Source of the DNA: Hydrogenophaga sp.
Lineage (GTDB): Bacteria; Pseudomonadota; Gammaproteobacteria; Burkholderiales; Burkholderiaceae_C
Length of the DNA: 64,000 bases
Direction: 5' to 3'
NCBI GenBank assembly: GCA_030653975.1
Contig: JAURYH010000005.1
Coordinates: 1-64,000, forward strand
Position 1 is the first letter of the stretch. Each line of letters begins with the position of its first letter. A program made the position numbers and the translations under genes. Below are positions 9,912 to 44,166 of this stretch, one piece after another. Under the pieces are notes generated by a model that did no database searches, was not told the DNA's origin, and worked only from the letters and a program-made list of their open reading frames with translations.

Positions 9912-9939
9912 AGGGGAGCTGGCAACGGCTCCCCTTTTT
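9912..9939 (+). terminator. Intrinsic terminator/attenuator
   Basis: AGGGGAGC-N8-GCTCCCCT followed by T-run. Confidence 0.75.
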
Positions 9940-9965
9940 GCCATTGCAAAACCAGGAGACAAGCC

Positions 9966-10337: not shown

Positions 10338-10567
10338 CGGCTCCTGGTTCGTCGAAGGGGGTCGAGGTTCGCGTCGGTGCTAACCCTGATGTGCGCGCGT
10401 CGTCAACTCGCTTTGCGCGCAAGACCGGGCTGCGCCAGCAGGGCGCGCCTAAGCTGGCGGCACGGCATCGCGCTGGAGTGAACGGCAAAAGCGCCGCCGG
10501 AACCAGGGCTTGAACCGATCCCGGTCGGCCCTCGTTGCATTGCCCCACCTCAACACAGGAGACACCC

Positions 10568-10996: not shown

Positions 10997-11005
10997 AGGA
11001 AACCC

Positions 11006-11443
11006 ATGAAACAGCTGAACAAATCCAATCGACGGCAGGCCCTTGCAGGAGGCGCGATGGCACTCACTCTTCCGATCCTCGCCATGTCCAGTGATGCCGC
11101 TGCAGGGGAACAGGCATCCAGCGCCACCCAGAAGGTTCTGGAGCACCACCTGGGCGCTTTCGCGAAGGGCCTCGACGAGCTCATGCGCGACTACTCAGCG
11201 GCCTCGGTCATCCTGACGCACGACAAACAGTACCGGGGTGTGACGGAAATCAGGGGCTTCTTCGATGGCTTCCTGAAGTCGGTCAAACCCGGATTCTGGG
11301 AGGCGTTCAGGATCAACGCGCAGGCCATTGACCGCGACGTGGCCTACCTGGTCTGGGAAGCCAAGCCGTTCGTCAACATCGCGACCGACACCCTGGTGAT
11401 CCGCCACAGGAAGATCGTGGTCCAGACGTTCACGGCGGCCTGA
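11006..11443 (+). CDS. SnoaL/NTF2-like exported protein
   Basis: Signal-like N-terminus plus NTF2-like fold pattern (LEHHLGAF...MRDYSAASVILTHDKQYRGVTEIRGFF). Confidence 0.65.
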   Translation: MKQLNKSNRRQALAGGAMALTLPILAMSSDAAAGEQASSATQKVLEHHLGAFAKGLDELMRDYSAASVILTHDKQYRGVTEIRGFFDGFLKSVKPGFWEAFRINAQAIDRDVAYLVWEAKPFVNIATDTLVIRHRKIVVQTFTAA

Positions 11444-11576
11444 GTCTCGCGCTCCTCTCGGGAGGACGGCGCTCGTCGACCACGCTCTTGCCTTGGACTC
11501 TGCCGCGTCCAGGCCTATCATGCCGACGGGGGCATGAACGGTCCGGCAGAAGACCTCGGAACCATCGGAGACGCAG

Positions 11577-12563: not shown

Positions 12564-12600
12564 CTGTTCCATTTCCGAACATCTTCAGCCGCGAAGCGCG

Positions 12601-12615
12601 TGGCACGGAACTTGT
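12601..12615 (+). promoter_or_regulatory. Sigma54-like -24/-12 element upstream of TonB receptor
   Basis: TGGCACGGAACTTGT (imperfect -12). Confidence 0.5.
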
Positions 12616-12685
12616 AGCCGGAAACGGGTGGAACAACCGCTACCGACCCAGGGTGCATCCCCGGTCAATTTGATGGAGACAAGAC

Positions 12686-14834: not shown

Positions 14835-15575
14835 TCAGAGCCCCGGCTTTTCCAGCGCGCGCAGCACCCCGGTCTGGAAGTCCGGTCCCTCGGCCGCGCA
14901 CATGAAGGCGTCGATCGAGCCGTCGAAGCGCACCGTGCCCTGGTGCAGCAGCATCAGGCGGTCGGCCACCCTGGCTTCTTCGATCAGGTGCGTGGCCCAG
15001 AGCACCGCCATGCCGCGCGTCTGGCACAGGCCGCGCACGGTGTCGAGCAGGTGCTGGCGCGAGGCCGGGTCCAGGCCCACGGTGGCCTCGTCCATGAGCA
15101 GGACGGCCGGCTCGTGCAGCAGGGCGCGCACCAGCTCCACCTTGCGCCGCGTGCCGCCCGAGAGGCTGCGCACCACGGCCTTGGCCTGATCGCCCAGGCC
15201 CATGGCCGCCAGCCCGTCGGCGATGCGCTGCCGGGCCACCGCGCGCGGCAGGCCGTGCAGGTCGGTGTGGAACAGCAGGTTGGCCGTCACCGAAAGGTCC
15301 ATGTCGAGCGCGCTCTGCTGGAACACCACGCCCAGCCTGGTCAGGGCGCGGGCCGGGTGGGCCCGCATGTCGTGGCCCAGCACCTCGATGGTCCCCGAGT
15401 CGGGGGTGAACAGGCCGGTCAGCAACTGCAGCAGGGTGGACTTGCCGGCCCCGTTGGGGCCGAGCAGGGCCAGCATTTCGCCCGCCCGCAGCGCCACGGT
15501 GACGCCCTTGAGCGCGGGTTTTCCGTTGTAGGCCTTGTGCAGATCCTGCGCGGTCAGCAGACAGGTTTCGGGCAT
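14835..15575 (-). CDS. ABC transporter ATP-binding protein, PQQ-dependent alcohol dehydrogenase system-associated
   Basis: LLGPNGAGKSTLLQ Walker A, SLSGGTRRKVELVRALL signature, VLLMDEATVGLD Walker B. Confidence 0.85.
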   Translation of the reverse strand: MPETCLLTAQDLHKAYNGKPALKGVTVALRAGEMLALLGPNGAGKSTLLQLLTGLFTPDSGTIEVLGHDMRAHPARALTRLGVVFQQSALDMDLSVTANLLFHTDLHGLPRAVARQRIADGLAAMGLGDQAKAVVRSLSGGTRRKVELVRALLHEPAVLLMDEATVGLDPASRQHLLDTVRGLCQTRGMAVLWATHLIEEARVADRLMLLHQGTVRFDGSIDAFMCAAEGPDFQTGVLRALEKPGL

Positions 15576-16845: not shown

Positions 16846-17841
16846 ATGCCCCTTCGTGCCCCGATCACTTCTGCCCTGCGCGCCGTGTCGCTCGCCGCCG
16901 CCGCCGCTTCGCTCGCCTTGATTGCCCAGGCCCAGGGTGCTGGCAAGGTCTATGTGTCCAGCGAGAAGGACAACAAGATCTATGTCTTCGACACCCAGGG
17001 TGAGCGCACCGGCGCCATCGACGTCTGCAAGCGGCCGCGCGACATGCGCTTCAGCGGCGACGGCCAGCAGATCCTCGTGATCTGTGGCGACAGCAACGCC
17101 ATGGGCCTGGTGAACCTGGCCACCGGCCAGCTGGCCGGCACGGTGCCCCTGGGCGACAGCCCCGAGATGTTTGCGCTCAGCCCCGACGGCAAGACCGCCT
17201 ACGTCTCGATCGAAGACGAGAACGTGGTGGCTGCCTACGACTTGGGCACGAAGAAACCGCTCTTTGAGGTCAAGACCGGCGGTGAGCCCGAGGGGGTGCT
17301 GGTCACGCCGGACGGCAAGACGGCCTACGTGACTTCCGAGGTGGCCAACGTGGTCCACGTGATCGACCTGGCCACGAAGAAGGTCACCAAGAACATCCAG
17401 GTCGGCAAGCGCCCGCGCCGCTTCGTGCTGTCGCCCGATGGCGCCGAACTGTGGGTCACCAACGAGCTCGACGCGACGGTCAGCGTGGTGGACACCAGGA
17501 CGAACACCGAAAAACAGAAGATCAGGTTCGAGGTGAAGGGCATGCGCCAGTCCGACATCACGCCCGTGGGCATGACCCTCAGCCCGGATGGCAAGAGCAT
17601 CTGGGTCGGGTTGGGCAAGGCCAATCATGTGGCGCAGATCGACGTGGCCACCAAGGCGGTGAAGACCCAGATCCTGGTCGGCAAGCGCGCCTGGGGCATG
17701 GGCTTCGCGCCCGACGGCAAGACGCTGTACGTGGCCAACGGCCTGTCGGACGACATGACGCTGGTGGACGCTGCCAGCGGCAAGGCGATCAGGACGGTGC
17801 CGGCCGGGCGGGTGCCGCACTCGGTCCTCGTCACGAAATGA
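16846..17841 (+). CDS. PQQ-dependent catabolism-associated beta-propeller (YVTN-repeat) protein
   Basis: Signal peptide plus repeats KVYVSSEKDNKIYVFDT..., LSPDGKTAYVSIEDENVVAAYDL. Confidence 0.9.
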   Translation: MPLRAPITSALRAVSLAAAAASLALIAQAQGAGKVYVSSEKDNKIYVFDTQGERTGAIDVCKRPRDMRFSGDGQQILVICGDSNAMGLVNLATGQLAGTVPLGDSPEMFALSPDGKTAYVSIEDENVVAAYDLGTKKPLFEVKTGGEPEGVLVTPDGKTAYVTSEVANVVHVIDLATKKVTKNIQVGKRPRRFVLSPDGAELWVTNELDATVSVVDTRTNTEKQKIRFEVKGMRQSDITPVGMTLSPDGKSIWVGLGKANHVAQIDVATKAVKTQILVGKRAWGMGFAPDGKTLYVANGLSDDMTLVDAASGKAIRTVPAGRVPHSVLVTK

Positions 17842-17880
17842 CCCCCCCCCGTTGCTTGCCCACTTCGTTGGGCCGCTCCG

Positions 17881-18002
17881 CCCCTCAAGGGGCTGAGGGC
17901 TGCGGCTCCGAGCCTGCCTGCGCAGGCTTGGACAGCCCGAAGGGGCTGCGACTCTGGCGCAGCCGCGGCCTGCAAGGCATGCCTGCGGCCTGGCGAAGCC
18001 AG
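17881..18002. repeat. Dispersed repeat family 1, copy A
   Basis: ggctgagggctgcggctccgagcctgcctgcgcaggcttggacagcccgaaggggctgcgactctggcgcagccgcggcctgcaaggca; matches 45971-46094 and 36021-36138. Confidence 0.85.
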
Positions 18003-19214
18003 TTCCGCGGCATTCTGGGCTGGGGGGCCCTGCGCGCTGCCGGGTTGGCGTTGCTGGGTTTGGGTGGGTTGTTTTCCTTGCCGGCTTTCGCGGCCACCAA
18101 AGTCACCATCGCGGTGGTCTCGCTCGACGGTGATCCGCGGTACGCACCGCGCCGCATGGAGAAGGCTTACCCCGGCCACCCGACCGGCCGCGCCATCGAC
18201 GGCGTGACGCTGGCGGCGGCCGATTCGGCGTTTGAGCTCGACGCGGCCGGGCTGGAGCTGGTGGTGAAAGACGTGGTCTTGCCCAACGCGGCGGCGCTGC
18301 CCAGGGCGCTGGCCGAGCTGAAAGCCCTGAGGGTGCAGCACGTGGTGGCCGACCTGCCGCTGGCCGAGCTGCAGCAACTGGTGCAGGCCGCGCCCGCGGC
18401 GCTCGGTGGGGCCATCGTGTTCAACGCCGCGCTGGACGACGACCGCCTGCGCGGGGCCCAGTGTGCGGCGCACCTGCTGCACACCGCGCCCAGCCGCGCC
18501 ATGCTGAGCGACGCGCTGGCGCAGTACCTCGCCGCGCGCAACTGGCGCAAGGCGCTGCTGCTGCTGGGGCCTCTGCCGGGCGACGCGTTGATGACCGAGG
18601 CCTTCAACCGCTCGGCCAAACGCTTCGGTATCAAGGTCGTGGCGCAGAAGCCGTTCAAGCTCACGGGCGATCCGCGCGAGCGCGACCTGGGCAACACGCG
18701 CCTGCTCACCGGCGACCGCGAACACGAAGTGGTGGCGGTGATGGACAGCGACGGCGAGTTCGCGCGAATCCTGCCGTATGCCACGCAGTGGCCGCGCCCG
18801 GTGGTCGGCGCCAGCGGTCTGGTGGCGGCGGCCTGGCACCCGCAGTGGGAACGCCACGGTGGCCCGCAGCTCAGCCGCCGTTTCTTCAAGCTCGCCCGGC
18901 GCACCATGCAGGGCCCCGACTGGGCGGCCTGGGCGGCGGGCCGCGCGGTGGCCGCCGTGCTGGCCGAGAACCCCAAGGCGCCGGTGGCGCAGCAGCTCAA
19001 GGCGTTGCGCGGGGGCAGCACCACGCTGGACGGCTTCAAGGGCCGCAACCTCTCGTTCCGCGCCTGGGACGGCCAGCTGCGCCAGCCGCTGTTCCTGAGC
19101 CATGTGGACGGCGTGGCCGGCACCGCGCCGCTCGAAGGCGTGTTGCACCCGAAGGAAGTGCTCGATACCCTCGGTGTTGATGAACAGGAGAGTGCATGCA
19201 AGTCGCGCCCGTGA
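17979..19214 (+). CDS. ABC transporter substrate-binding protein, PQQ-dependent alcohol dehydrogenase system
   Basis: MPAAWRSQFRGILGWGALRAAGLALLGLGGLFSLPAFAATKVTIAVVSLDGDPRYAP...; alternative in-frame ATG at 17838. Confidence 0.82.
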   Translation: MPAAWRSQFRGILGWGALRAAGLALLGLGGLFSLPAFAATKVTIAVVSLDGDPRYAPRRMEKAYPGHPTGRAIDGVTLAAADSAFELDAAGLELVVKDVVLPNAAALPRALAELKALRVQHVVADLPLAELQQLVQAAPAALGGAIVFNAALDDDRLRGAQCAAHLLHTAPSRAMLSDALAQYLAARNWRKALLLLGPLPGDALMTEAFNRSAKRFGIKVVAQKPFKLTGDPRERDLGNTRLLTGDREHEVVAVMDSDGEFARILPYATQWPRPVVGASGLVAAAWHPQWERHGGPQLSRRFFKLARRTMQGPDWAAWAAGRAVAAVLAENPKAPVAQQLKALRGGSTTLDGFKGRNLSFRAWDGQLRQPLFLSHVDGVAGTAPLEGVLHPKEVLDTLGVDEQESACKSRP

Positions 19215-20053
19215 ACGCTTCCGTGATGCCGCTCGCAGCGCCCTCGCTGCCCCTGCACCTGCTGCGCGCCCTGCGCGCGGTGGTGGGGCGCGAGCTCAAC
19301 CGTTTCCTGCGCCAGCCCACGCGCCTGGGCTCGGCGCTGGTGCGGCCGCTGCTGTGGTTCGTGGTGTTTTCGGCCGGCTTCAACAACGTGTTCGGCGTCG
19401 CCATCGTGCCGCCCTACGAGACCTACATCGAATACAAGGCCTACATGGTGCCCGGCCTGCTCGGCATGGTGGCCCTGTTCAATGGCATGCAGAGTTCGCT
19501 CTCCATGGTCTACGACCGCGAGATGGGCGTGATGCGCCTGCTGCTCACCGCGCCGCTGGCGCGCGGCTGGCTGCTGGCCTTCAAGCTGCTCGCGGGCACC
19601 TGCCTCTCGGTGCTGCAGATGGTGGTGTTCCTGGCCATCGCCTGGGCCTTTGGCGTCGAGGTGCCGCTGGCCCACCTGCCGGGCCTGCTGGTCGCCATGG
19701 CCTGCGGCGCCACCCTGCTGGCCGCGCTCGGACTGATGCTCTCGGTCTACGTGAAGCAGCTGGAGAACTTTGCCGGCACCATGAACTTCGTGATCTTCCC
19801 GATGTTCTTCATCAGCCCCGCGCTGTACCCGCTGTGGAAGCTCGAAGAATCGGGTGCGTGGTGGTTGCTCCGACTCGCCGAGTGGAACCCGTTCACCCAC
19901 GCGGTGGAAGCCATGCGTTTTGCGATGGTGGGGCAGTTCACGGCCTTGTCGTGGTCGGTGGTGGTGGGCTGCGGTGTGGTGTTTTTTGTCGCGGCTTTGT
20001 GGGGCTACGACCCGCAACGCGGTTGGGTCAAGAGCAAGGGAGGCGGCGGATGA
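19196..20053 (+). CDS. ABC-2 type permease, PQQ-dependent alcohol dehydrogenase system (PedC-like)
   Basis: Multi-TM ABC-2 permease ELNRFLRQPTRLGSALVRPLLWFVVFSAGFNNVFG. Confidence 0.88.
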   Translation: MQVAPVNASVMPLAAPSLPLHLLRALRAVVGRELNRFLRQPTRLGSALVRPLLWFVVFSAGFNNVFGVAIVPPYETYIEYKAYMVPGLLGMVALFNGMQSSLSMVYDREMGVMRLLLTAPLARGWLLAFKLLAGTCLSVLQMVVFLAIAWAFGVEVPLAHLPGLLVAMACGATLLAALGLMLSVYVKQLENFAGTMNFVIFPMFFISPALYPLWKLEESGAWWLLRLAEWNPFTHAVEAMRFAMVGQFTALSWSVVVGCGVVFFVAALWGYDPQRGWVKSKGGGG

Positions 20054-20853
20054 GCCCGTTCATTCAACGTCGCCATTTGCTGGGCGGTGGCGTGCTGGCG
20101 GCACTGCTGCCCGCTGCACTTCGCGCGCAAGACGACCAGACCGGCGGTGACCCGCTGGGTTCCATGCAGTACCCCAGCCTGCGCGAGCAGACCATCGGCA
20201 AGGCGGCAGCCCGGTTCTCCGACCTCGTGATCGTCAAGGGCCCGGCCTTTGCCGACGACGCGATGAACGTGCCGCTGCTGGTGGATGCGCGCGGGCTGGA
20301 CAAGGTGGGCGGCGGTGTCGCGCGCATCCGCGTGGCGGTGGACCGCAACCCGGTGCGCCAGGTGCTGGACTTCGAACCCCTGCGCGCGCTGCCCATGCTG
20401 GCCTTCCGCATCCGCATGGAGCAGGCCTCGCCCGTGCGCGCCTTCGTGCAGACGCGCGACGGCCAGTGGCACGTGGGCAGCACCTGGGTGCAGGCGGCGG
20501 GTGGCGGCTGCACGGTGCCCGGCCTCACGCGCGCCGACGGCTCCTGGAGCAAGACCCTGGGCCAGGTGCAGGCGCGCTTTTTCAACAACGTGCTCGAAGG
20601 CAGCCGCCGCCTGCGGGTGCGCGTGATGCACCCCATGGACACCGGGCTGGTCGCGGGCATCCCGGCCTTCTACATCGAAGACCTGCAGCTGGTGGACAGC
20701 ACGGGCCAGGCCTGGTGGAGGCTGGCGCTGCACGAGCCGGTGTCGGAAAACCCGCTCATCACCTTCGAGCTGCCGCCGCAGGCGGTGCCGGGCCTGCGAC
20801 TGATCGGACGCGACAACAACGGCAACCGCATCGACGCCGAGGTGGGCGCGTGA
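20050..20853 (+). CDS. Quinoprotein dehydrogenase-associated SoxYZ-like carrier
   Basis: SoxY-like N half with GGGCTVPG, SoxZ-like C half; 4-nt overlap with permease. Confidence 0.85.
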   Translation: MSPFIQRRHLLGGGVLAALLPAALRAQDDQTGGDPLGSMQYPSLREQTIGKAAARFSDLVIVKGPAFADDAMNVPLLVDARGLDKVGGGVARIRVAVDRNPVRQVLDFEPLRALPMLAFRIRMEQASPVRAFVQTRDGQWHVGSTWVQAAGGGCTVPGLTRADGSWSKTLGQVQARFFNNVLEGSRRLRVRVMHPMDTGLVAGIPAFYIEDLQLVDSTGQAWWRLALHEPVSENPLITFELPPQAVPGLRLIGRDNNGNRIDAEVGA

Positions 20854-21839
20854 AACGGCTGTTGTTGTCCGCTGCGCTCGCACTGGCGGGTGTCGTGCAC
20901 GCCCAATCCATCCCGGTGCCACCGCCGGCATCAAGGCCCGACGCCGCCAGCTTCAACTACGACCTGCGGCCGCGCCAGATCGCCGAAGGCACCTGGGTGA
21001 TCGAAGGCGCGGTGCAGGACTTCAGCCGCGCCAACGGCTGCAACATCATCAACACCGCCTTCATCGCCACCGGCGCGGGGGTGGTGGTGATCAACACCGG
21101 GCCTTCGCGCCTGTACGGCGAGCAGCAGCGCCGGGCCATCGAACGCATCACGCGCGAGCCGGTGATGCGCGTGCTGGAACTCAACCTGCACCCCGACTAC
21201 TTCTTCGGCAACCAGGCCTGGGCCGACCGGCCCACGCAGGCGCTGGCCGGCAGCATCGCCGGCATGCAGGCCGAAGGCACGGCCTACGCCGACAACCTCT
21301 ACCGCCTCTGCGGCGACTGGATGCGCGGCACCGAGTCCAGCCCCGCGCGCGAAGCCGTGTTGCCGCAGACCCTGCAGCTTGGCCAGCACCAGCTGGAACT
21401 CCAACGCCTGCACGGCCACACCGCCGACGACCTGGTGCTGCTCGACCACCGCACCGGTGTGCTGTTCGCTGGTGGCCTGGTGTTCGCCGAGCGCGTGCCC
21501 ACCACGCCGCACGCCGACTTCTCTGCCTGGCTGGCCAGTCTCGATGCGCTGGAGCAGCTCATCACCAGCGGTGCCGCAAAAACCGTGGTGCCCAGCCACG
21601 GCCCGGTGCACACGGGCCTGGCCGGTGTGCAGCAGACGCGCGACTGGCTGCGCTGGCTCACCACGCTGATGCAGGAGAGCGCCGAGCGCGGACTCGACCT
21701 CGGCGAGGTGCTGCGCACGCCCGTGCCCGAGCGCTTCAAGCGCTGGGCCGCCCAACCCGCCGAGCTGCACCGCAGCCTGACGCAGTGGTACCCGCGCTAT
21801 GAACAGCGCGCGCTGGCTGAACCCGTCCGCCGCCCCTGA
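20850..21839 (+). CDS. Quinoprotein relay system metallo-beta-lactamase-fold protein
   Basis: Signal peptide, NLHPDYFFGNQAW, HGHTADDLVLLD, AGGLVFAERVP; GTG start. Confidence 0.82.
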   Translation: MKRLLLSAALALAGVVHAQSIPVPPPASRPDAASFNYDLRPRQIAEGTWVIEGAVQDFSRANGCNIINTAFIATGAGVVVINTGPSRLYGEQQRRAIERITREPVMRVLELNLHPDYFFGNQAWADRPTQALAGSIAGMQAEGTAYADNLYRLCGDWMRGTESSPAREAVLPQTLQLGQHQLELQRLHGHTADDLVLLDHRTGVLFAGGLVFAERVPTTPHADFSAWLASLDALEQLITSGAAKTVVPSHGPVHTGLAGVQQTRDWLRWLTTLMQESAERGLDLGEVLRTPVPERFKRWAAQPAELHRSLTQWYPRYEQRALAEPVRRP

Positions 21840-22015
21840 GCCGCGTGCTGTGTTGCAGCCCGGGAGCGCTGCACCGCAGGCACTGCGACATTTCTGAACA
21901 CTGTCACAAGGGTGTCTCGCCACCCGGTTCGGGTTTGGCGCATTTGCAGCCGTCCGGCGGCCCTGGCGCGGCATTGCGGGGGTATTCCGATCAGTGAAAA
22001 CCCTAGGGTTTGCAC

Positions 22016-22030
22016 TGGCACAGAAGTTGC
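22016..22030 (+). promoter_or_regulatory. Sigma54 -24/-12 promoter of PQQ-ADH gene
   Basis: TGGCACAGAAGTTGC, consensus. Confidence 0.8.
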
Positions 22031-22146
22031 CATTTCTTCGCTGCGTGCATGTCCGAGACCGGAGGGGCTGGAGTCAGAAGAGCGGTCAGGCGGCACGGCC
22101 AGTTCCCACAAGCCATCAACCTCACAAACGAGCAGGAGACCACCCA

Positions 22147-23868
22147 GTGAAACGCACTCTATTGAGCCTTTTGGTCATGGCCGCCACGGCCCACGTCAGC
22201 GCCCAGGGCGTGACCGACGCGATGATCGCGGACGACGCCAAGACCCCCGACAACGTGCTCAGCTGGGGCCTCGGCACCCAGGGCCAGCGCCACTCGCCGC
22301 TGACCGGCATCAACGAAAAAACCATCAGCAAGCTGGTGCCCGTGTGGTCCATGTCTTTCGGTGGTGAAAAGCAGCGCGGCCAGCAGTCGCAGCCGCTGGT
22401 CAACAAGGGCAAGATGTTCGTCACCGCGTCCTACTCGCGCATCTACGCGGTGGACACCAAGACCGGCAAGAAGCTCTGGAAATACGAGCACCGCCTGCCC
22501 GAAGGCATCATGCCCTGCTGCGACGTGATCAACCGCGGCGCCGCCCTGTACGACAACCTCGTCATCTTCGGCACGCTGGACGCCCAGCTGGTGGCGCTCG
22601 ACCAGGAAACCGGCAAGGTGGTGTGGCGCGAGAAGATCGACGACTACTCCGCCGGCTACAGCTACACCGCCGCGCCGCTGATCGCCGAAGGCCTGCTCAT
22701 GACCGGTGTCTCCGGTGGTGAGTTCGGCGTGGTCGGCCGCGTCGAGGCGCGCGACCCCAGGACCGGCAAGATGGTCTGGACGCGCCCTGTGGTCGAAGGC
22801 CACATGGGCTACAAGGACGGCAAGGAAAATGGCATCACCGGCACCACCAACGCCACCTGGCCCGGCGAGACCTGGAAGACCGGCGGCGCGGCCACCTGGC
22901 TCGGCGGCAGCTACGACCCCACCACCGGCCTGGCCTACTTCGGCACCGGCAACCCCGGCCCCTGGAACAGCCATGTGCGCAAGGGCGACAACCTGTATTC
23001 CGCCTCCACCGTCGCCATCGACGTGAAGACCGGCCAGATCAAGTGGCACTACCAGTCCACCCCGAACGACGGCTGGGACTACGACGGTGTGAACGAGTTC
23101 ATCACCTTCGACATGGACGGCAAGCGCGTCGGTGCCAAGGCCGACCGCAACGGCTTCTTCTACGTCAACGACGCCGCCACCGGCAAGCTGATCAACGCCT
23201 TCCCCTTCGTCAAGAAGGTGACCTGGGCCACCGGCATCGACCTGAAGACCGGCCGCCCCAACTTCGACCCGGCCAACCGCCCGGGCGACCCGACCGCTGC
23301 GGGTGGCGACGGTGCCAAGGGCAAGTCGGTGTTCTCCGCGCCGGGCTTCCTGGGTGGCAAGAACCAGATGCCCATGGCCTACAGCCCCAAGACCGGCCTG
23401 TTCTACGTGCCCACCAACGAATGGGGCATGGAGATCTGGAACGAACCCATCACCTACAAGAAGGGCGCCGCCTACCTGGGCGCGGGTTTCACCATCAAGC
23501 CGCTGTTTGACGACCACATCGGTTCGCTGCGCGCCATCAACCCCAAGACCGGCAAGGTCGAGTGGGAAGTCAAGAACGAAGCCCCGCTCTGGGGTGGTGT
23601 GCTGACCGCAGGCGACCTGGTTTTCTGGGGCACGCCCGAGGGTTACCTCAAGGCCGCCGATGCCAAGACCGGCAAGGTGGTCTGGCAGTTCCAGACCGGC
23701 TCCGGCGTGGTCGCACCTCCCATCACCTGGACCGAAGGCGGCGAGCAGTACGTGAGCGTGGTCTCCGGCTGGGGCGGCGCGGTGCCCCTGTGGGGCGGTG
23801 AAGTGGCCAAGAAGGTCAACTTCCTCGAACAGGGCGGCTCGGTCTGGACCTTCAAGCTCATGAAGTGA
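22147..23868 (+). CDS. PQQ-dependent alcohol dehydrogenase, predicted lanthanide type (PedH/XoxF-like DxD motif)
   Basis: MPCCDV vicinal disulfide, W-motif repeats, GWDYDGVNE active site; GTG start. Confidence 0.93.
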
Positions 23869-26830: not shown

Positions 26831-26980
26831 CCCTGCTGGGTCGAATCGCGGGCTGAGGCGCTGTCGTCATCGCTGCTGTTGTGCGGTGTTTCGGCGATAC
26901 GTGTTGTCACATCTGGTGGCAGGACTGGTCCTGTACCCTGGGTAGCATCAGTCTGTCTTTTCGTTCACATGGAGAACCTC

Positions 26981-27565
26981 ATGAACACCACACACCGAAT
27001 CAATGCCCTGAACACCCTGCGCCCGCTCGTGCTGGTCATCGCCGGCCTGGCCGCTGGCGCCAGCTGGGCCCAAGTCACTGTGGTGGTCGAACCGGTGCTG
27101 ACCGTCGTCGATCCCGTCGTGGCTGCGCGGCAGCAAGAGATGGCCCTGCAACTGGCCCGGGCCAACCTCAGCCAGCAGGGCATCACCGAACCGACCACCG
27201 GGCAGATCGCCCTGGCCACCAGCGATGTGCAGGCGCTGCGCGACAGTGGCATGGGCTGGGGCCAGATCGCCAACAGCCTGGGCCTGCGCCTGGGCGCCGT
27301 GGTCAGTGCGGCCAACCGGGCCGACCAGGCCGACCGCCAGGCAGGCTGGGCCATTGGGACCCGCACCACCCGCCCTGCGGCAGCAGGCAGCCAGGCAAAT
27401 GGAGGTAACAGCGGCAACAGCAATGCCGGTGGTCAAGGCGTCGGCAGCAGCGGTAACCGGGGCGGTGGCGCCAGTGCCGGCGGCGGTTCCAATGCGGGCG
27501 GTGGTGGCAACTCCGGCAATGGCGGTGGCGGCAACGGCGGCGGCAACGGTGGTGGCAAGCGCTGA
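26981..27565 (+). CDS. Exported protein with low-complexity Gly/Asn-rich tail
   Basis: Signal peptide; C-terminal GGGNSGNGGGGNGGGNGGGKR. Confidence 0.6.
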   Translation: MNTTHRINALNTLRPLVLVIAGLAAGASWAQVTVVVEPVLTVVDPVVAARQQEMALQLARANLSQQGITEPTTGQIALATSDVQALRDSGMGWGQIANSLGLRLGAVVSAANRADQADRQAGWAIGTRTTRPAAAGSQANGGNSGNSNAGGQGVGSSGNRGGGASAGGGSNAGGGGNSGNGGGGNGGGNGGGKR

Positions 27566-27620: not shown

Positions 27621-28409
27621 TCAGGGCTCCCACTCCGCCGTGAGAACACCCCCGGTGAGAAACCCGCTGGGCACTTTTTCTTCGCGCTGAAACTTCACCA
27701 GCCCCTCGCCCTGGCAGTACCACTCGCGGCTGATCAGGGGCACGTCGGTGAAGCCGTTGACCGGGTCGGTGTAAAGGTTCAGGCGGGCCTGGCCGACCAC
27801 GCGCAGGCAGGGCTGGTGGGTGCTGCCGTCGGCGAGCTTCACGCTGGCGTCCACCGCTTCGATGCGCCAGGTCATCTGTGCCTTGTGGGTGTACTTCAGG
27901 TCGCGCGGGTGTTCGTTCCTGCGCTGGATCAGGTAGGGCACGGTGGGCGTGGTCCATTCGGTACCGATCTGGTACGGCGCTTTCAGTACCCAGATCGGTT
28001 CGGCGTCGGCCGTGGGCTCGTTGTCGATGTCGGTGCGGGTGGCGATGCGGCGGATGCCTTGTTCGTCTACTTTGAGGTAGTAGCTCACGCCGGCGGAGTG
28101 GTGGCGCACGGCGACGGTCTGGTCCTGGAACGTTTCGGACTGGGCCACGCGCAGGGTCCATTGTTCGGGCTCGCGCGGTTCTTCGCCGGTGTATTGCACG
28201 GTGTAGTCCTGTGTTTCGCCTTCGCGCAGGGGGAACCAGACATTGCCTTGGTTGCTGGGGTTGCAGGCGGTGAGGAAGAGGGTGGCTGCTGTGGCCGCGA
28301 TGGTGGTGGTGATGGGTGAGGTGTGGGCGCGTGGGCCCTCACCCCGACCCTCTCCCGCGAGCGGGAGAGGGGGCAAGACACCGCGGCTGCTTGGGGTGCG
28401 AGCGCTCAT
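27621..28409 (-). CDS. Uncharacterised lipoprotein-like protein (member of post-pqqE module)
   Basis: LFLTAC lipobox-like after N-terminal hydrophobic stretch; overlaps upstream gene by 4 nt. Confidence 0.6.
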   Translation of the reverse strand: MSARTPSSRGVLPPLPLAGEGRGEGPRAHTSPITTTIAATAATLFLTACNPSNQGNVWFPLREGETQDYTVQYTGEEPREPEQWTLRVAQSETFQDQTVAVRHHSAGVSYYLKVDEQGIRRIATRTDIDNEPTADAEPIWVLKAPYQIGTEWTTPTVPYLIQRRNEHPRDLKYTHKAQMTWRIEAVDASVKLADGSTHQPCLRVVGQARLNLYTDPVNGFTDVPLISREWYCQGEGLVKFQREEKVPSGFLTGGVLTAEWEP

Positions 28410-28930
28410 TTTTCGGGTAACTGGGCACGTGGCAAATCAGACAGCTTGATCTCCACCTTGTCGTTGCTCGCGGGCAGCAGCCAGGCCAGGCCGCCCTGGC
28501 CGCGTTTGGGCTCGGTGCTGCCCATCTGGGTGTTGCCTTCGCGCGCTTTCTTGATGCCGTCGCCGAGGATGCGGTGCAGGTCTCTTTCGTAGGGCAGGCG
28601 AAACACGCGTGGCATCTCCAGCGGCGCGTTGTCTTTCATGGGGTTGACCCAGATGTAGATGGCGCCCTTGTGGCCGCGGCCGGGGCTGGGCTCGTCGAAC
28701 ACGGCCGAGAGCAGCATGAAGCGTTGGGGCAGGGCGTCGTCGCTCGGCCAGCCCGCGATGCCTTGCAGCGTGTGGTGGCCAAAGACATAGAAGCCGCTCA
28801 CCAGCAGCACCATCGCACCCTTCACGGTCCAGGGCCAGCGCGTGGCCAGGCACAGGCAGAGCAGCAGGAACGCGAGCAGCGCGTACACCAGCACGAGCAG
28901 CAGCAACTGGGAAGAGACGGCAGGGATCAT
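28406..28930 (-). CDS. Uncharacterised membrane protein (member of post-pqqE module)
   Basis: Two N-terminal TM segments; conserved-looking soluble tail. Confidence 0.65.
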   Translation of the reverse strand: MIPAVSSQLLLLVLVYALLAFLLLCLCLATRWPWTVKGAMVLLVSGFYVFGHHTLQGIAGWPSDDALPQRFMLLSAVFDEPSPGRGHKGAIYIWVNPMKDNAPLEMPRVFRLPYERDLHRILGDGIKKAREGNTQMGSTEPKRGQGGLAWLLPASNDKVEIKLSDLPRAQLPEK

Positions 28931-28946
28931 GGTTGTTCTTGTGGGG

Positions 28947-29558
28947 TCAGAGGCCGGAGCGTTGCACGATGGTGAGCGGGCGGGTGTTGAGGTCGATGAC
29001 ATTGCCGCCCTCGTCGATGCTGAAACGCACCAGGGTGCGCTCGTCGCCCTGGGCGGGAATCTGCTGCGTGCCGGTGTAGACGATCTCGGCCTGCGGGTTG
29101 ACCTTCACGACCGCGACCGACACGTCCACCGGCAGTTTGTCCTTGCTCTCGTAGTAGTGGGCGTTGACCACGTACTCACCGGGCACGATGCCCCGCAGGG
29201 TGACGATTTCCTGCCGGATCGGGCTGCTGAACGCGCGGCCGTTCACCAGCACGCTGCTGTTCTTGGCGCCGCGGTCGTCGCGGTCCAGGTGCAGCATGCC
29301 GGCGTCGCGCTGTCGGAACCACAGCGTCTTGCCGCCGGGCTCCAGCACCCAGGCGTCGACGTCGTTGGGGTTGTTGTCGGGCCAGGACACGGTGACCATG
29401 AACTCGGCCTTGGCCGGCACGTCGCCGGCCTTGCGGGCCTTGGGGTTGAACGAGAGCAGGGCGATGACGAAACAGAAGACGAAGGCGATCAACATGTTGA
29501 ACAACATGTCGTAGAACGGATCGGTCTCGGTGTCACGGACCGCTCGACCGATCGCCAT
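28947..29558 (-). CDS. ExbD/TolR-like membrane protein with large periplasmic domain
   Basis: DPFYDMLFNMLIAFVFCFVIALLSFNPKA resembles the ExbD/TolR TM with conserved Asp. Confidence 0.6.
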   Translation of the reverse strand: MAIGRAVRDTETDPFYDMLFNMLIAFVFCFVIALLSFNPKARKAGDVPAKAEFMVTVSWPDNNPNDVDAWVLEPGGKTLWFRQRDAGMLHLDRDDRGAKNSSVLVNGRAFSSPIRQEIVTLRGIVPGEYVVNAHYYESKDKLPVDVSVAVVKVNPQAEIVYTGTQQIPAQGDERTLVRFSIDEGGNVIDLNTRPLTIVQRSGL

Positions 29559-30306
29559 GGGGCGTCTCCTGCGGTGGGGCGGCGGGCTGCGCGAGCCGGG
29601 CGGCCAGGGTGTCGGCCACCAGCGCATCGGCAAAACGGTCGAGCCGCATGAGCTGCAGGCCGAGCAGGATGTTGCCGGTGAGGCCGGTGACGGTGGTGAG
29701 CAGGGCAATGCCGAGGCCGCCGGTGAGGTTCTTGAGCAGCAACGACGACTGGCTGGCGTCGAAGCTGTCCATCTGCCCGAGCTGCAGCGCAAGGATGGAA
29801 AAGCCGATCACCTTGCCCAGCAGACCGAGCTTGAGCTGGATGCCGTTGAGCCACCAGGCCATTTCGTGCGGGCCGTGCGCGCGCTCGCCCAGCACCTGCA
29901 GCCAGATGGAATGGTCGGCGCCGGGCAGTGCGCAGCCCTGTTGGTATTCGGTGCTCCAGCCGGCGGGCGGCGCGGTGGATGATGCCGCGAGCTGCGCGTC
30001 GAGCCGCTGGCGCTGCTGGCCCAGCACCCAGGCGCGGCGCCCGGCCCAGACCGAGCAACCGATGAACAGCAGCACGATGGTGACGGTGAGCCCGGTCGGG
30101 TCGGCTGCCACCAGCCGGTGCCAGGCGCCGGCTTGCCACAGCAGCAGGGCGCCAAACACCAGCAGGCCCATGTAGGCCAGCCAGAGCAGGAACAGGCCGT
30201 GTTCCATGCGCTCCAGCGCGAGTGGGCTGTGGCGCGCTCCCGGGATGCGGCTCACCAGCGCCGCACCGAGCATGCGGTGGTGCGGGGCGCTGGCGGGTGG
30301 GGTCAT
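29533..30306 (-). CDS. MotA/TolQ/ExbB-like proton channel family protein
   Basis: GLLGKVIGFSILALQLG ... NLTGGLGIALLTTVTGLTGNILLGLQLMRLDR; overlaps the ExbD-like gene by 26 nt. Confidence 0.65.
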   Translation of the reverse strand: MTPPASAPHHRMLGAALVSRIPGARHSPLALERMEHGLFLLWLAYMGLLVFGALLLWQAGAWHRLVAADPTGLTVTIVLLFIGCSVWAGRRAWVLGQQRQRLDAQLAASSTAPPAGWSTEYQQGCALPGADHSIWLQVLGERAHGPHEMAWWLNGIQLKLGLLGKVIGFSILALQLGQMDSFDASQSSLLLKNLTGGLGIALLTTVTGLTGNILLGLQLMRLDRFADALVADTLAARLAQPAAPPQETPHGDRSSGP

Positions 30307-30314: not shown

Positions 30315-31469
30315 TCAATCTGCGGGATGCAGGTGGCGCGATTCGGCATCGCTGCGGAACACGATGGGGATGCTGCGTCGCGTGGGCGCCAGCTTCACCA
30401 GCTGCACCACCTTCTCGTGGTGCGGCGACTTGCTGCACACCGGGTCGGCCTCGGTGGCGTCGCCGGTGATCAGGAACGCCTGGCAGCGGCAACCGCCAAA
30501 GTCCTTGTGGCGCTCGTCGCAGGTTCGGCAGGGGGCCTTCATCCAGCTGTCGCCGCGGAAGGCGTTGAAGGCGTTGCTGCGTTGCCAGATCTCGGCGACG
30601 GACGTGTCCTTCACGTTGGGCAGCTGCAGGCCGGGCAGGTCGCGCGCGTTGTGGCAGGGCATGGCCAGGCCGTCGGGCGCGATGGAGAGGAACACCGAGC
30701 CCCAGCCGTTCATGCAGGCCTTGGGCCGTTCTTCAAAGTAGTCGGGCACCACGAACAGCACACGCGTCCTGGGGCCGGTCTTGCCCTCCTGCTCGGCGCG
30801 GAAGCGGTTGACCACCGCCTCGGCCTCCACGAGTTCTTCGCGCGTGGGCATGAGGTGGTCGCGGTTGATCCAGGCCCAGCCGTAGTACTGCGTGTTGGCG
30901 AGTTCGAGGTACTCGGCTTCGAGTGCCACCGCCATCTCGATGATCTTGCCGACGTGCGGCAGGTTGTGCCGGTGCAGCACGCAGTTCATCACCATCGGCC
31001 AGTCGTGTGCCTTGATGAGCCTGGCCACGCGCTGCTTGAGTTCGAAGGTCTTGGTGTGGCTCAAAAAGTCGTTCAGCTCCTTGGTGGAGTCCTGGAACGA
31101 GAGCTGCACGTGGTCGAGTCCGGCGTCCTTCAGTTTCTGCGCGCGAATCGGCGTGAGGCCCACGCCGGAGGTGATGAGGTTGGTGTAGTAGCCCAGGCGG
31201 TGCGCTTCTTGCACCAGTTCTTCCAGGTCGTCGCGCAGCAGCGGTTCGCCACCCGAAAAGCCGAGCTGCGCTGCGCCGAGCTGGCGCGCCTGCTGCATCA
31301 CGTCCACCCACTGCGCGGTGCTCATCTCGGTTTGGATGCGCGCGTGCTGTGTGGGGTTGTAGCAGAACACGCAGTGCAGCGGGCACCGGTAGGTGAGTTC
31401 GGCCAGCAGCCACAGGGGCTGACCGATCACGGGCGGTTTGCCGGTGGGCGCTTCAGTCGATCCAGCCAC
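30315..31469 (-). CDS. pqqE: PqqA peptide cyclase PqqE (radical SAM)
   Basis: CPLHCVFCYNPT radical SAM motif; SPASM-type Cys-rich C-terminus. Confidence 0.96.
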   Translation of the reverse strand: MAGSTEAPTGKPPVIGQPLWLLAELTYRCPLHCVFCYNPTQHARIQTEMSTAQWVDVMQQARQLGAAQLGFSGGEPLLRDDLEELVQEAHRLGYYTNLITSGVGLTPIRAQKLKDAGLDHVQLSFQDSTKELNDFLSHTKTFELKQRVARLIKAHDWPMVMNCVLHRHNLPHVGKIIEMAVALEAEYLELANTQYYGWAWINRDHLMPTREELVEAEAVVNRFRAEQEGKTGPRTRVLFVVPDYFEERPKACMNGWGSVFLSIAPDGLAMPCHNARDLPGLQLPNVKDTSVAEIWQRSNAFNAFRGDSWMKAPCRTCDERHKDFGGCRCQAFLITGDATEADPVCSKSPHHEKVVQLVKLAPTRRSIPIVFRSDAESRHLHPAD

Positions 31470-31716
31470 GGCGTTGTCCTTCTTCCAGAAGCGACCGGAC
31501 TTCGGGCGCCAGGCCCTGCGCGTTGAACGCGGTTTCCAGCTCGGCGACGATGGCGTCGAGCGTGCGTTCGCCATCGCAGCGTTTCAGGATTTCCGCCGCG
31601 CTCGGGTTGAGCTGCACCATGCCTTCGGGATACAGCAGCACCCAGCGGCTCTGCGTTTCCTCGTACTGCAGGCGGAAGCGGCGTGAGAGCTTGGGTCGAT
31701 TCGGCAACGTACTCAT
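31453..31716 (-). CDS. pqqD: PQQ biosynthesis peptide chaperone PqqD
   Basis: RFRLQYEETQSRWVLLYPEGMVQLNPSAAEIL. Confidence 0.95.
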   Translation of the reverse strand: MSTLPNRPKLSRRFRLQYEETQSRWVLLYPEGMVQLNPSAAEILKRCDGERTLDAIVAELETAFNAQGLAPEVRSLLEEGQRRGWID

Positions 31717-31776
31717 CGCAGTGCCCATGTTGGTTGTTCGATGCGGTGCAGAAACCTGTCCGGCGTGCGTGTCAAT

Positions 31777-31864: not shown

Positions 31865-32596
31865 TCATTGACACGCCTTTTCAATCGCGTCCAGCATGGT
31901 CCAGAGGATGTCCAGCTTGAACTGCAGGATGTCCAGCGCGCGGTGCTGCGCTTCTCGCGTGTTGAAGTGGCTGAGCGTGACCTGCAGGCCGTGCTCCACG
32001 TCGCGGCTGGCGAGCGGGATGCGGCTGCGGAAATAGGCCAGGCCGCTGGCCTCGATCCAGGGGTAGTGCGTGGGCCAGGTGGCCAGGCGGTCCTTGTGGA
32101 TCTGCGGCGCGAACATTTCGGTGAGCGAGGAACACACGGCTTCCTGCCACGGCGCCCTGGCCGCAAAATTCACGTACGCGTCGCAGGCGAAACGCACCGC
32201 GGGCGCCACACCCTGCAGCGACCACAGGTCTTCGCGCGATATGCCGACCGCTTCGCCCAAACGCGTCCAGGCTTCGATGCCGCCCGCGGCCGAGCCCTCG
32301 TGGTCGCCATGACCGTCGTGGTCCAGGATGCGTTCGACCCACAGCCGGCGGTGCGCGCGGTCGGGCATGTTGGCGAGGATGGCGGCGTCTTTGCGCGGGA
32401 TGCAGATCTGGTAATAAAAGCGGTTGGCCACCCAGCAGCGGATCTCGTCGGGTGTGCAGCCGCCCGCGTTCATGCGCACGTTGAACGGGTGGTGGATGTG
32501 GTAGCTGCGGCCCTTGTCGCGCAGCTGGGCCTCGAAGGCTTCGGGGCTCCAGGCGGGCAGGTGGCTGTGTTGGCGGATGGCTTGGGCGATTTCCAT
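31865..32596 (-). CDS. pqqC: Pyrroloquinoline-quinone synthase PqqC
   Basis: [32 protein letters not shown]. Confidence 0.97.
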
Positions 32597-32606: not shown

Positions 32607-33524
32607 TCAGAACGTGATGTCCATACCGTCGTGGGCGACCTCGATGCCGTGCGCGGTGAGTTCGGCGCGTTCGTCGGAGTCTTCCACCAGCATGGGGTTG
32701 GTGTTGTTGATGTGGATGAGGACCTTGCGCACGCCGGCGGGCAACTGGTCGAGCTGTTCGATCATGCCGCCCGGGCCGCTCTGTGGCAGGTGGCCCATGT
32801 CGAGCGCGGCCTTGGGCGAGAGACCGAGGCGCTGCATCTCGTCGTCGGTCCAGAAGGTGCCGTCGATCAGCACCACGGCGCAGCCGCTCATGAGCTCGAT
32901 CAGCGCGGGCGTGACCTCCGCCAGGCCGGGCGCGTAGAACGCGCGCTGCTGGGTGGCGGGGTTGGTGATCAGCAGGCCGATGTTGTCACCCGGGCGCGGG
33001 TTGCCGCGGAACGGTGAATACGGCGGCGGCTTGGACGAGAGCGACACGGTCTGCACCTGCAGGCCAGGCAGGCCGGGTACGTTCACCGTGCTGCCGTCGA
33101 TGGGCAGTTCCTGGCGCTGCACGCCGCAGTAGTGCGACAGGATGCCGGTGATCGGGAAGCCGCTGGAGATGTCGGAGAACACCTCGGGCGTGGCCAGCAG
33201 GGGCAGCGGCGTCTGGCGTTCGCGCAGCATCAGCAGGCCGGTGACGTGGTCGATCTGCGCGTCCATCAGCAGCACGGCGGCGATGCCGCTGTCGCGGATG
33301 GCGCGGGCCGGCTGCAGCTCGGGCGCTTCGCGGATCTGGGCCAGGATGTCGGGCGACGCATTGACGAGCAGCCAGTCGGCTCCGTCGGCACTGATGGCGA
33401 TGGACGACTGTGTGCGCGCACGCGCCTGGAGCGTGCCACGGCGAAAGCCGTCGCAGTTGGGGCAGTTGCAGTTCCATTGCGGGAAGCCGCCGCCGGCCGA
33501 TGAGCCGAGAACCCGGATGCGCAT
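32607..33524 (-). CDS. pqqB: PQQ biosynthesis protein PqqB
   Basis: [33 protein letters not shown] fold. Confidence 0.97.
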
Positions 33525-33618: not shown

Positions 33619-33693
33619 TCAGCGGTTGGCGATGTACATCGTGATTTCAAAACCGAAACGCAGGTCGGTGAAAGCGGGGGTGGTCCATTGCAT
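33619..33693 (-). CDS. pqqA: PQQ precursor peptide PqqA (24 aa)
   Basis: [24 protein letters not shown]; conserved E-x3-Y; not in supplied ORF track. Confidence 0.96.
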
Positions 33694-41546: not shown

Positions 41547-41770
41547 GGGAGTGTCTCGTATTTGTTCAAATTTTTGTCTGCCATGCCAAAGACAGCATCA
41601 AGTATGCCAACGGCCGCGGTGTTTCATTTTGAGAATTTCCGTGGCCGACCCAGGCCGAATGAGGGATAACCCTCAAGCCGAAGTGCTTCAGGCAACCAAC
41701 AATGGCCAGGCAAATCTTTTCATATGCATGGCGCAGCACAAGTGGCGCCGCACCCCCACAGGAGAACCTC

Positions 41771-42247
41771 ATGCAGAAAGTCCTGCACATCAACCCGGAC
41801 AAATGCACCGGCTGCCTGCAGTGCGAAATGGCCTGCTCGTTCGAGAACTACGGCATCTACGCCACCTCGAAGTCGCGCATCAAGGTGTTCGACTTCCACC
41901 ACACCGGCAAGAAGGTGCCTTACACCTGCACCCAGTGCGACGAAGCCTGGTGCCTGCACGCCTGCCCGGTGGAAGCGATCACGGTGGACAAGATGACCGG
42001 CGCCAAGGTGGTCAACGAGACCACCTGCGTGGGCTGCAAGGTCTGCACCATCGCCTGCCCCTTCGGCACCATCAACTACGTGCAGGAAACCGGCAAGGTC
42101 CAGAAGTGCGACCTCTGCGGCGGTGAGCCGGCCTGCGCCGAAGCCTGCCCGACCGCGGCGATCACGTTTGTCGACGCCAACTGGACCGGCATCGACAAGA
42201 TGAAACAGTGGGCCGACAAGCTGGGCAACCAGCCGTCTGCAGCCTAA
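41771..42247 (+). CDS. Polyferredoxin subunit of AOR complex (AorA-like)
   Basis: Four 4Fe-4S motif sets: CTGCLQCEMAC, CTQCDEAWCLHACP, CVGCKVCTIACP, CDLCGGEPACAEACP. Confidence 0.9.
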   Translation: MQKVLHINPDKCTGCLQCEMACSFENYGIYATSKSRIKVFDFHHTGKKVPYTCTQCDEAWCLHACPVEAITVDKMTGAKVVNETTCVGCKVCTIACPFGTINYVQETGKVQKCDLCGGEPACAEACPTAAITFVDANWTGIDKMKQWADKLGNQPSAA

Positions 42248-42318
42248 AGACTTGCGGGTCAGACCACTCGCGCAGCGATGTGCTCTGGCCCCAACCGATC
42301 AAATCAAGGAGCATCAAC

Positions 42319-44166
42319 ATGTCTTGGGCTGGAAAAATCCTCCGCGTCAACCTGAGCGCGGGCACCGTGAAGTCCGAACCGCTGAACATGGAGTGGGCGC
42401 GCGCCTACCTCGGTTCACGCGGCCTGGGCAGCAAGTACCTGATCAGCGAAGTCGACCCCAAGGTCGATCCGCTGTCGGCCGACAACAAGATCATCTGGGC
42501 CACCGGCCCGCTGACCGGCACCATGGCCTCCACCGGCGGCCGCTACACCGTCATCACCAAGGGCCCGCTCACCGGTGCCATCGCCTGCTCGAACTCGGGC
42601 GGCTACTGGGGCGCCGAGCTCAAGATGGCCGGCTGGGACATGGTGATCTTTGAAGGCAAATCGGCCAAGCCGGTCTACCTCTACATCAACGACGACGATG
42701 CCGAACTGCGCGACGCTTCGCACCTTTGGGGTCAGAGCGTGTGGAAGACCGAAGAGATGCTCAAGACCGGCCTGCAGGACCCGCTGCTGCGCGGCTCCAG
42801 CCTCGGCAAGGCCCGTGAAAACGGCGTGCTGCACGCCGCCGTGGGCCACGACCAGCACCGTCCGGCCGGCCGCTCGGGCGTGGGCGCCGTCATGGGCAGC
42901 AAGAACCTCAAGGCGATTGCCGTGCGCGGCACCAAGGGCGTGGGCAACATCCGCGACCCCAAGGCCTTCATGAAGGTCACCTTCGAGAAGAAGAAGATCC
43001 TGGCCGAGAATGCCGTCACCGGCCAGGGCCTGCCGGCCTACGGCACCCAGGTGCTGATGAACGTGATCAACGAGATGGGCGCGCTGCCCACGCGCAACCA
43101 CCGCGACGTGCAGTTCGAAGGCGCCAAAGACATCTCGGCTGAAGCCATGGCCACGCCGCGCGAGAGCGACGGCAAGAAGCACCTGGTGACCAACCAGGCC
43201 TGCTTCGGCTGCACCATCGCCTGCGGGCGCATCAGCAAGATGGACGAAGGCCACTTCACCGTCGCCAACAAGCCGCAGTACTGGGGCGCCAACGGCGGCC
43301 TCGAATACGAAGCGGCCTGGGCGCTGGGCGCGGCCAACGGCGTGAACGACCTCGAAGCGCTGCAGTACGCCAACATGCTGTGCAACGAAGAGGGCTTCGA
43401 CCCGATCAGCTTCGGTGCCACCGTGGGCGCGGTGATGGAGCTGTACGAAATGGGCGTGCTCACCGCGGAGCAGCTCGGCATCGACGCCAAGTTCGGCTCG
43501 GCGCAGGCACTGGCCCACTTCGCCGAGATCACCGCCAGGGGCGAAGGCTTCGGCAAGGAGATCGGCCAGGGTTCCAAGCGCCTGACCGAAAAGTACGGCC
43601 ATCCCGATCTGTCCATGAGCGTGAAGGGCCAGGAATTTCCGGCTTACGACGGCCGTGCGATCCAGGGCATCGGTCTGGCCTACGCCACGTCCAACCGCGG
43701 CGCCTGCCACCTGCGCGGCTACACCATCGCGTCTGAAGTGCTGGGCATCCCGGTCAAGACCGATCCGGTCGAGAGCGAAGGCAAGCCGGAACTGGTGAAG
43801 GCGTTCCAGGACGCCACCGCCGCGTTCGACTCGTCGGGCCTGTGCGTGTTCACCACCTTCGCCTGGGGCGTGGCCGATCTGGCACCGCAGCTGCAGGCCG
43901 CGTGCAACGAAGAGTTCACCACCGAAGAACTGGAGAAGATCGGTGAGCGCATCTGGAACATGGAGCGCGAATTCAACAACGCCGCCGGCTTCACCGCCAA
44001 GGACGACAACCTGCCCAAGCGCCTGCTGACCGAGGCGGCCAAGACCGGTGCCTCCAAAGGCATGGTCAGCAAGCTGCCCGAGATGCTGCCCAAGTACTAC
44101 GCCGCGCGCGGCTGGGACCCGGAAGGCCGACCGACCGCCGAGACCCGGGCACGCCTGAGCCTCTGA
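42319..44166 (+). CDS. Tungsten-type aldehyde:ferredoxin oxidoreductase large subunit (AorB-like)
   Basis: AOR N domain SWAGKILRVNLSAGTV..., NQACFGCTIACGR cluster motif, GRSGVGAVMGSKNLKAI. Confidence 0.95.
   Translation: MSWAGKILRVNLSAGTVKSEPLNMEWARAYLGSRGLGSKYLISEVDPKVDPLSADNKIIWATGPLTGTMASTGGRYTVITKGPLTGAIACSNSGGYWGAELKMAGWDMVIFEGKSAKPVYLYINDDDAELRDASHLWGQSVWKTEEMLKTGLQDPLLRGSSLGKARENGVLHAAVGHDQHRPAGRSGVGAVMGSKNLKAIAVRGTKGVGNIRDPKAFMKVTFEKKKILAENAVTGQGLPAYGTQVLMNVINEMGALPTRNHRDVQFEGAKDISAEAMATPRESDGKKHLVTNQACFGCTIACGRISKMDEGHFTVANKPQYWGANGGLEYEAAWALGAANGVNDLEALQYANMLCNEEGFDPISFGATVGAVMELYEMGVLTAEQLGIDAKFGSAQALAHFAEITARGEGFGKEIGQGSKRLTEKYGHPDLSMSVKGQEFPAYDGRAIQGIGLAYATSNRGACHLRGYTIASEVLGIPVKTDPVESEGKPELVKAFQDATAAFDSSGLCVFTTFAWGVADLAPQLQAACNEEFTTEELEKIGERIWNMEREFNNAAGFTAKDDNLPKRLLTEAAKTGASKGMVSKLPEMLPKYYAARGWDPEGRPTAETRARLSL

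Follow-up and report, generated by a model that had tools for sequence, protein, structure and literature searches.

Four genes, which we designated mod1 to mod4, followed the last gene of a pqqABCDE operon in the window, i.e., the whole 64,000-nucleotide stretch of DNA that was analysed. The contig carrying this cassette is C12 of a 4.1-Mb genome, among whose named relatives Hydrogenophaga is the closest. The cassette and the related genes of the window were as follows.

29533-30306, minus strand: mod1, 257 aa, predicted diverged MotA/TolQ/ExbB-type membrane protein
28947-29558, minus strand: mod2, 203 aa, predicted N-terminal Asp-bearing TM helix and periplasmic beta-sandwich-like domain
28406-28930, minus strand: mod3, 174 aa, small membrane protein
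27621-28409, minus strand: mod4, 262 aa, predicted lipoprotein with a YmcC-like fold
30315-31574, minus strand: pqqE, directly upstream of mod1 (NCBIfam TIGR02109, E 1.9e-154, match from residue 49)
31453-31728, minus strand: pqqD (NCBIfam TIGR03859)
31865-32596, minus strand: pqqC (NCBIfam TIGR02111)
32607-33521, minus strand: pqqB (NCBIfam TIGR02108, residues 99-401 of a long ORF)
33619-33693, minus strand: pqqA-like precursor peptide (24 residues), preceding pqqB
21994-23868, plus strand: PQQ-dependent alcohol dehydrogenase (PQQ-ADH) with the lanthanide-type motif WDYDGVNE
20053-21839, plus strand: SoxYZ-like carrier and quinoprotein relay zinc metallohydrolase 1 (TIGR04557, TIGR04558)
17451-20053, plus strand: PedA1-like substrate-binding protein and PedC-like permease of a PQQ-ADH-associated ABC system (TIGR03863, TIGR03861)
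14835-15575, minus strand: PedB-like ABC ATPase, PQQ_ABC_ATP (TIGR03864, above cut-off)
12686-14785, plus strand: PqqU-like TonB-dependent receptor, without a clear statistical link to the cassette

The initial annotation had described four packed minus-strand ORFs starting 8 nt past the pqqE stop, and the positions and overlaps matched this description: 8 nt separated the pqqE stop from the ATG of mod1, mod1 and mod2 overlapped by 26 nt, mod2 and mod3 were 16 nt apart, mod3 and mod4 overlapped by 4 nt, and the same order was kept in 78 of the 80 loci counted below (best 80 of 218). This tight packing predicts a single transcript; a promoter scan gave one site, near the number expected by chance. 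Because the longest ORF of pqqE overlaps pqqD, the true start of pqqE is probably nearer 31430, and that of pqqB lies within a longer ORF, which ends at 33815. Elsewhere in the window, a glycine-rich, secreted-looking protein without a known family was encoded at 26879-27565 and had relatives in nine other cassette loci. Ferredoxin-like and aldehyde ferredoxin oxidoreductase-like proteins were encoded beside the PQQ locus at 41702-44166, and their relatives recurred near several other cassette loci. The regions 56759-59413 and 51021-52118 encoded a NosR-like membrane protein and an ApbE flavin transferase; in another locus, L105, the genes for these two proteins lie directly 3' of mod4.

Two segments of mod1, KLGLLGKVIGF and GLGIALLTTVTGL, were MotA/TolQ/ExbB-like. 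The MotA/TolQ/ExbB family (PF01618) was matched by 60 of 61 mod1 homologues, with a best E of 2.2e-6; the window mod1 alone gave 14.6 bits (E 0.028), under the Pfam cut-off of 22.9, and one relative scored 22.5. When the mod1 profile was compared by hhalign with a canonical ExbB/TolQ profile of 28 proteins encoded in this genome and its relatives, the two aligned across the last two (pore) helices with a probability of 82% and E 1.1e-5, and controls with a wrong partner were negative. Sequence and profile searches of solved structures (PDB) with mod1 and mod2 returned nothing useful. Judged by its sequence, mod1 is a diverged, distant relative of MotA/TolQ/ExbB. Contigs C41, C57, and C58 of the genome carry three further ExbB/TolQ-type genes together with three of the ExbD/TolR type; since canonical-type pairs are present elsewhere, the cassette represents an additional, diverged set. 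An apparent mod1 paralogue beside pedC, which ORF clustering had suggested as a second motor gene, was most likely a clustering artefact, and its counterpart in the window is the SoxYZ-like carrier gene.

The single TM helix of mod2 was N-terminal (residues 14-37 in the predicted model; DPFYDMLFNMLIAF) and contained DPFYDMLFN. Its Asp17 was invariant in 64 of 64 sequences and was also kept in distant mod2 homologues at 28-44% identity. Against the ExbD profile, the TM helix alone aligned, with Asp17 opposite the functional Asp of ExbD (PF-x-D motif), although this match was weak (18 residues, probability 3.9%). The periplasmic part, residues ~51-191, was modelled with moderate confidence (pLDDT 78) as a beta-sandwich-like domain with predicted beta strands. 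There was no useful match to this domain in Pfam, NCBIfam, or PDB, and a fold search with the mod2 model gave no match at E<=0.001. The ExbD domain (PF02472) was absent from mod2 in the Pfam search, and the three PF02472 proteins of the genome are encoded elsewhere. By these comparisons, mod2 is not an ExbD, and its periplasmic domain is apparently new.

One strong TM segment (residues 9-27) and a conserved C-terminal QLPEK were found in mod3, which had no family match over the Pfam cut-off. The lipobox LTAC occupied residues 46-49 of mod4, and most mod4 homologues carried a lipobox, usually followed by Ser or Gly. The window mod4 had no Pfam match; its predicted model was a confident all-beta fold (pLDDT 90), and the nearest solved structures in Foldseek were the YmcC-like lipoproteins 4fvs (E 7e-5) and 3fzx (E 1e-4), with a probability of 1.00. 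The low TM-scores (0.31-0.38) indicated that mod4 shares only part of this fold. The N-terminus of mod4 contained a low-complexity repeat, VLPPLPLAGEGRGEG, before the lipobox, so that the true start of mod4 is uncertain. In this part of the coding sequence, a palindromic repeat-like stretch at 28335-28371, CCCTCTCCCGCTCGCGGGAGAGGGTCGGGGTGAGGGC, yields these odd residues and looks like either the in-frame insertion of a REP-type element or the product of a misplaced start. Neither mod3 nor mod4 gave a TonB match in Pfam. The genes had been read in order as a MotA/TolQ/ExbB-like protein, an ExbD-like Asp-bearing TM helix joined to an unfamiliar periplasmic domain, a small membrane protein, and a lipoprotein-like protein. 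This reading was borne out by the family and hhalign matches of mod1, by the invariant Asp17, helix-only ExbD alignment, and absence of a domain match in mod2, and by the TM segment of mod3 and the lipobox of mod4.

A scan of the genome collection yielded 218 mod2 relatives, and the best 80 were kept for locus counts; the named taxa among these 80 were nearly all Burkholderiales. The four genes were complete and in order in 78 of these best 80 of 218 loci. The incomplete loci were L110, cut by a contig end, and L037, cut inside mod1 and without a match to mod4. Such conservation of both the proteins and their order indicated that the arrangement is not due to chance. A ped- or pqq-type gene lay within 10 kb of the cassette in 78 loci of the same best 80; the two loci far from ped genes belonged to Comamonas, and their genomes have pqqE and PQQ-ADH elsewhere. 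Directly upstream of mod1, the best 80 of 218 had pqqE (33 loci), pedC (19), a MoxJ-like gene (1), a contig edge (2), or another gene (25). The gap or overlap between mod1 and the upstream pqqE or pedC was usually a few bases, and in the 19 pedC loci the cassette was co-directional with pedC. The clearest case was L105, in which one strand encoded PedB, PedA2, a TonB receptor, PedA1, PedC, mod1-4, the NosR-like protein, ApbE, a D-x-D ADH, a MoxJ-like protein, and a PqqU-like receptor. Limnohabitans and others had the same locus without pqqBCDE, the cassette still being in place. A distant three-gene form (mod1, mod2, and a mod3-like gene; mod4 not found) at 6792-11043 of locus L025, from genome G045, adjoined genes for a SorA-like sulfite dehydrogenase and a c-type cytochrome; as G045 also had no PQQ-ADH over the cut-off, the core might work for different periplasmic systems as well. 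Another distant three-gene form, at 11142-13085 of a locus on an Azospirillum brasilense plasmid (L022), adjoined genes for an OsmY-like lipoprotein and an amidase, and the same plasmid had a second, weaker mod2 match at 960351-960770.

Within the genus, pqqE was present in 18 of 18 cassette-positive genomes vs 4 of 18 cassette-negative genomes (Fisher p=1.6e-6, ignoring phylogeny). Outside that genus sample, pqqE was absent from 12 of 27 cassette-bearing genomes, a proportion that is no population estimate, as the 27 were picked as loci mostly without pqqE beside the cassette; PQQ-ADH was over the cut-off in all 27. The 12 genomes without pqqE ruled out a role in PQQ biosynthesis, and the cassette is therefore not for PQQ synthesis. 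The PQQ-operon linkage proposed in the initial annotation thus stood in part: ped or pqq genes lay within 10 kb in 78 of the best 80 of 218 loci, but the tie to pqqE as such did not hold, given these 12 genomes and the 19 of 80 loci with pedC upstream. The window itself holds a ped-like locus, in which a D-x-D PQQ-ADH occurs together with PedA1, PedB, and PedC homologues. The D-x-D motif is the signature of lanthanide-type enzymes (XoxF/ExaF/PedH), and the motif of the window ADH, WDYDGVNE, is of this type. Among ADHs near cassettes, 52 of 54 were D-x-D, and in sampled genomes with a readable motif a D-x-D ADH was found in 17 of 17 cassette-positive vs 6 of 12 cassette-negative genomes (p=0.002). 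This computation showed that the cassette is linked to the lanthanide-type PQQ-ADH (ped-like) locus, independently of PQQ synthesis.

Three of the six cassette-negative genomes with a D-x-D ADH were Hydrogenophaga with the same locus and pqqE and no intact cassette (G005, G033, and G008). Other genes occupied the cassette position in G005 and G033. In G008 (L144, 10380-10617), what was left of the cassette after pqqE was the beginning of mod1 and the last part of mod4, and the rest of the locus, with its D-x-D ADH, was intact; this appears to be an internal cassette deletion, although an assembly error is possible in a draft genome. These genomes ruled out a strict need of the lanthanide-type ADH for the cassette. 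Because their D-x-D ADH is retained although the cassette is not intact, the cassette is an accessory of the locus and is not essential to it.

The receptor at 12686 is PqqU-like, and it had been suggested that the cassette energises it. Within the genus, however, a PqqU-like receptor was found in 13 of 18 cassette-positive vs 10 of 18 cassette-negative genomes; this proposal was therefore not adopted, and an obligate partnership with the PqqU-like receptor was ruled out. The other roles raised in the initial annotation, in metal uptake or quinoprotein assembly, are hypothetical. As a dedicated TonB-type energiser, the cassette would serve a PqqU-like or siderophore-type TonB-dependent receptor in PQQ or lanthanophore uptake. 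Such a receptor lay within 10 kb in 26 of the best 80 of 218 loci, the cassette directly followed a siderophore-type receptor gene in G038, a gene of the same type lay directly 3' of mod4 in L084, and both receptors were in one run with the cassette in L105. We nevertheless consider this role distinctly unlikely, as the cassette encodes no TonB-like protein, mod2 is without an ExbD domain, three canonical ExbB/ExbD-type pairs are encoded elsewhere in the genome, and the co-occurrence counts above also argue against it. In several Hydrogenophaga relatives (G003, G011, G012, G014, and G029), several of them without pqqE, a PQQ-ADH gene lay ~1 kb or less from a PqqU-like receptor gene, which suggests that these pairs are PQQ-scavenging units.

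The reading that we prefer, with a probability of roughly 0.4, is that mod1-4 form an envelope complex of the ExbBD/TolQR/MotAB type, driven by the proton motive force and accessory to the lanthanide-type PQQ-ADH (ped-like) system, most likely powering the transit of lanthanide or lanthanide/PQQ. We infer the assembly, stoichiometry, proton use, and cargo or powered step of this complex: by analogy with known motors, several mod1 subunits would surround mod2 helices, protons passing Asp17 would move mod2, and the periplasmic domain of mod2 would act via mod3 on the lipoprotein mod4. The motor might thereby power a step by which lanthanide, or a lanthanide/PQQ complex, crosses the envelope and reaches the PedABC importer or the apo-enzyme. 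Since the cassette follows pedC immediately or else shares its locus, the simplest reading is that it powers a further envelope step of the Ped system. In favour of the preferred reading are the PF01618 and ExbB/TolQ profile matches of mod1, the four-gene order kept across loci, the closeness to ped/pqq genes, and the D-x-D ADHs nearby; in addition, the gene beside mod1, mod2, encodes a putative B subunit with one N-terminal TM helix and an Asp conserved in 64 of 64 sequences and in distant homologues. Counting against this reading are the score of the window mod1 under the Pfam cut-off, the empty PDB profile searches, the 18-residue extent of the mod2-ExbD match, and the lack of a TonB/TolA-like partner in the cassette, together with G005, G033, and G008 without an intact cassette, the two Comamonas loci apart from ped genes, and the G045 form without PQQ-ADH. 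The more specific proposal, that the cassette is an undescribed proton-driven trans-envelope motor for lanthanide (or lanthanide-PQQ) handling, which in Burkholderiales works alongside the Ped ABC importer and whose own periplasmic domain and lipoprotein replace TonB/TolA, seems to us somewhat unlikely.

Enzyme maturation is the main rival to envelope transit. In that case, the motor would aid the insertion of Ln3+ and PQQ into the periplasmic dehydrogenase, or its assembly, and mod4 would be a periplasmic chaperone or carrier. The Mxa accessory proteins of the Ca-type methanol dehydrogenase are ATPase-linked, and the cassette might be their proton-driven counterpart. A maturation role would fit the tie of the cassette to the ADH locus and not to PQQ synthesis, the absence of clear co-occurrence with the PqqU-like receptor, and the position of the G045 three-gene form beside another periplasmic cofactor enzyme. 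According to existing descriptions, however, P. putida PedH (PMC12997753) and Methylorubrum XoxF1 (PMC7391723) function in the absence of the cassette, which several Hydrogenophaga that have a D-x-D ADH also lack. We judge maturation unlikely. We give little credence to general Tol-Pal-like envelope maintenance, co-regulated with periplasmic alcohol oxidation, e.g., to protect the outer membrane from stress by alcohols or aldehydes. In its broad layout, an inner-membrane motor with a lipoprotein does resemble Tol-Pal, the fold of mod4 is like that of YmcC-like lipoproteins, and distant forms were found outside PQQ loci, but the linkage to lanthanide-type PQQ-ADH loci is very tight across many genera, and no OmpA/Pal-like or TolA-like part was found.

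Returning to the transit reading, P. putida needs PedA1A2BC to grow in a lanthanide-dependent manner at nanomolar La3+, and this system is the proposed La3+ importer (PMC6839425), whereas the outer-membrane step of lanthanide entry in this organism is unresolved, and its ped cluster functions without such a cassette (PMC12997753). In Methylorubrum, a TonB receptor and an ABC system take up lanthanide (PMC7391723). A conserved, motor-like four-gene set in the lanthanide alcohol-oxidation locus of many Burkholderiales would offer a direct genetic handle on lanthanide crossing of the outer membrane. The searched open-access literature on lanthanide uptake and 5:2 motors contained no description of the set, in keeping with the initial view of it as undescribed.

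Among known systems, the Zorya ZorAB anti-phage stators share a weak similarity of ZorA to mod1 on the same helices (E 0.21-0.32), but mod2-4 match no Zorya protein and the context is metabolic; a Zorya defence role was ruled out, as PADLOC gave only ZorA (E 0.21) for mod1 and none for mod2-4. The mod4 model resembles the YmcC-like lipoproteins (PDB 4fvs and 3fzx; Foldseek E ~1e-4, probability 1.00) and differs from them in its low TM-scores (0.31-0.38). Unlike Tol-Pal, the cassette encodes neither a Pal-type (OmpA-like) lipoprotein nor TolA, mod4 having a YmcC-like fold and no Pfam match, and unlike the Ton system it encodes no TonB-like partner. With the Ped/Lut uptake systems (PedA1A2BC; LutA-H) it shares a gene set, near overlap with pedC in 19 of the best 80 of 218 loci, and a nearby lanthanide-type PQQ-ADH, whereas ExbB has 0 occurrences both in the ped review of 2026 (PMC12997753) and in the lut study (PMC7391723). 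Compared with the 5:2 motors ExbBD/TonB and TolQR/TolA, the window mod1 falls under the Pfam cut-off, the periplasmic domain of mod2 appears unrelated to ExbD/TolR/MotB, TonB/TolA is absent, and two extra conserved proteins are present; nevertheless, mod1 has both pore-helix motifs, mod2 has a single Asp-bearing TM helix, and the A and B genes are adjacent and overlapping. Non-flagellar ion-driven motors are structurally diverse and include members of unknown function (PMC12505986), and with mod1-4 the ion-driven motors would gain a branch.
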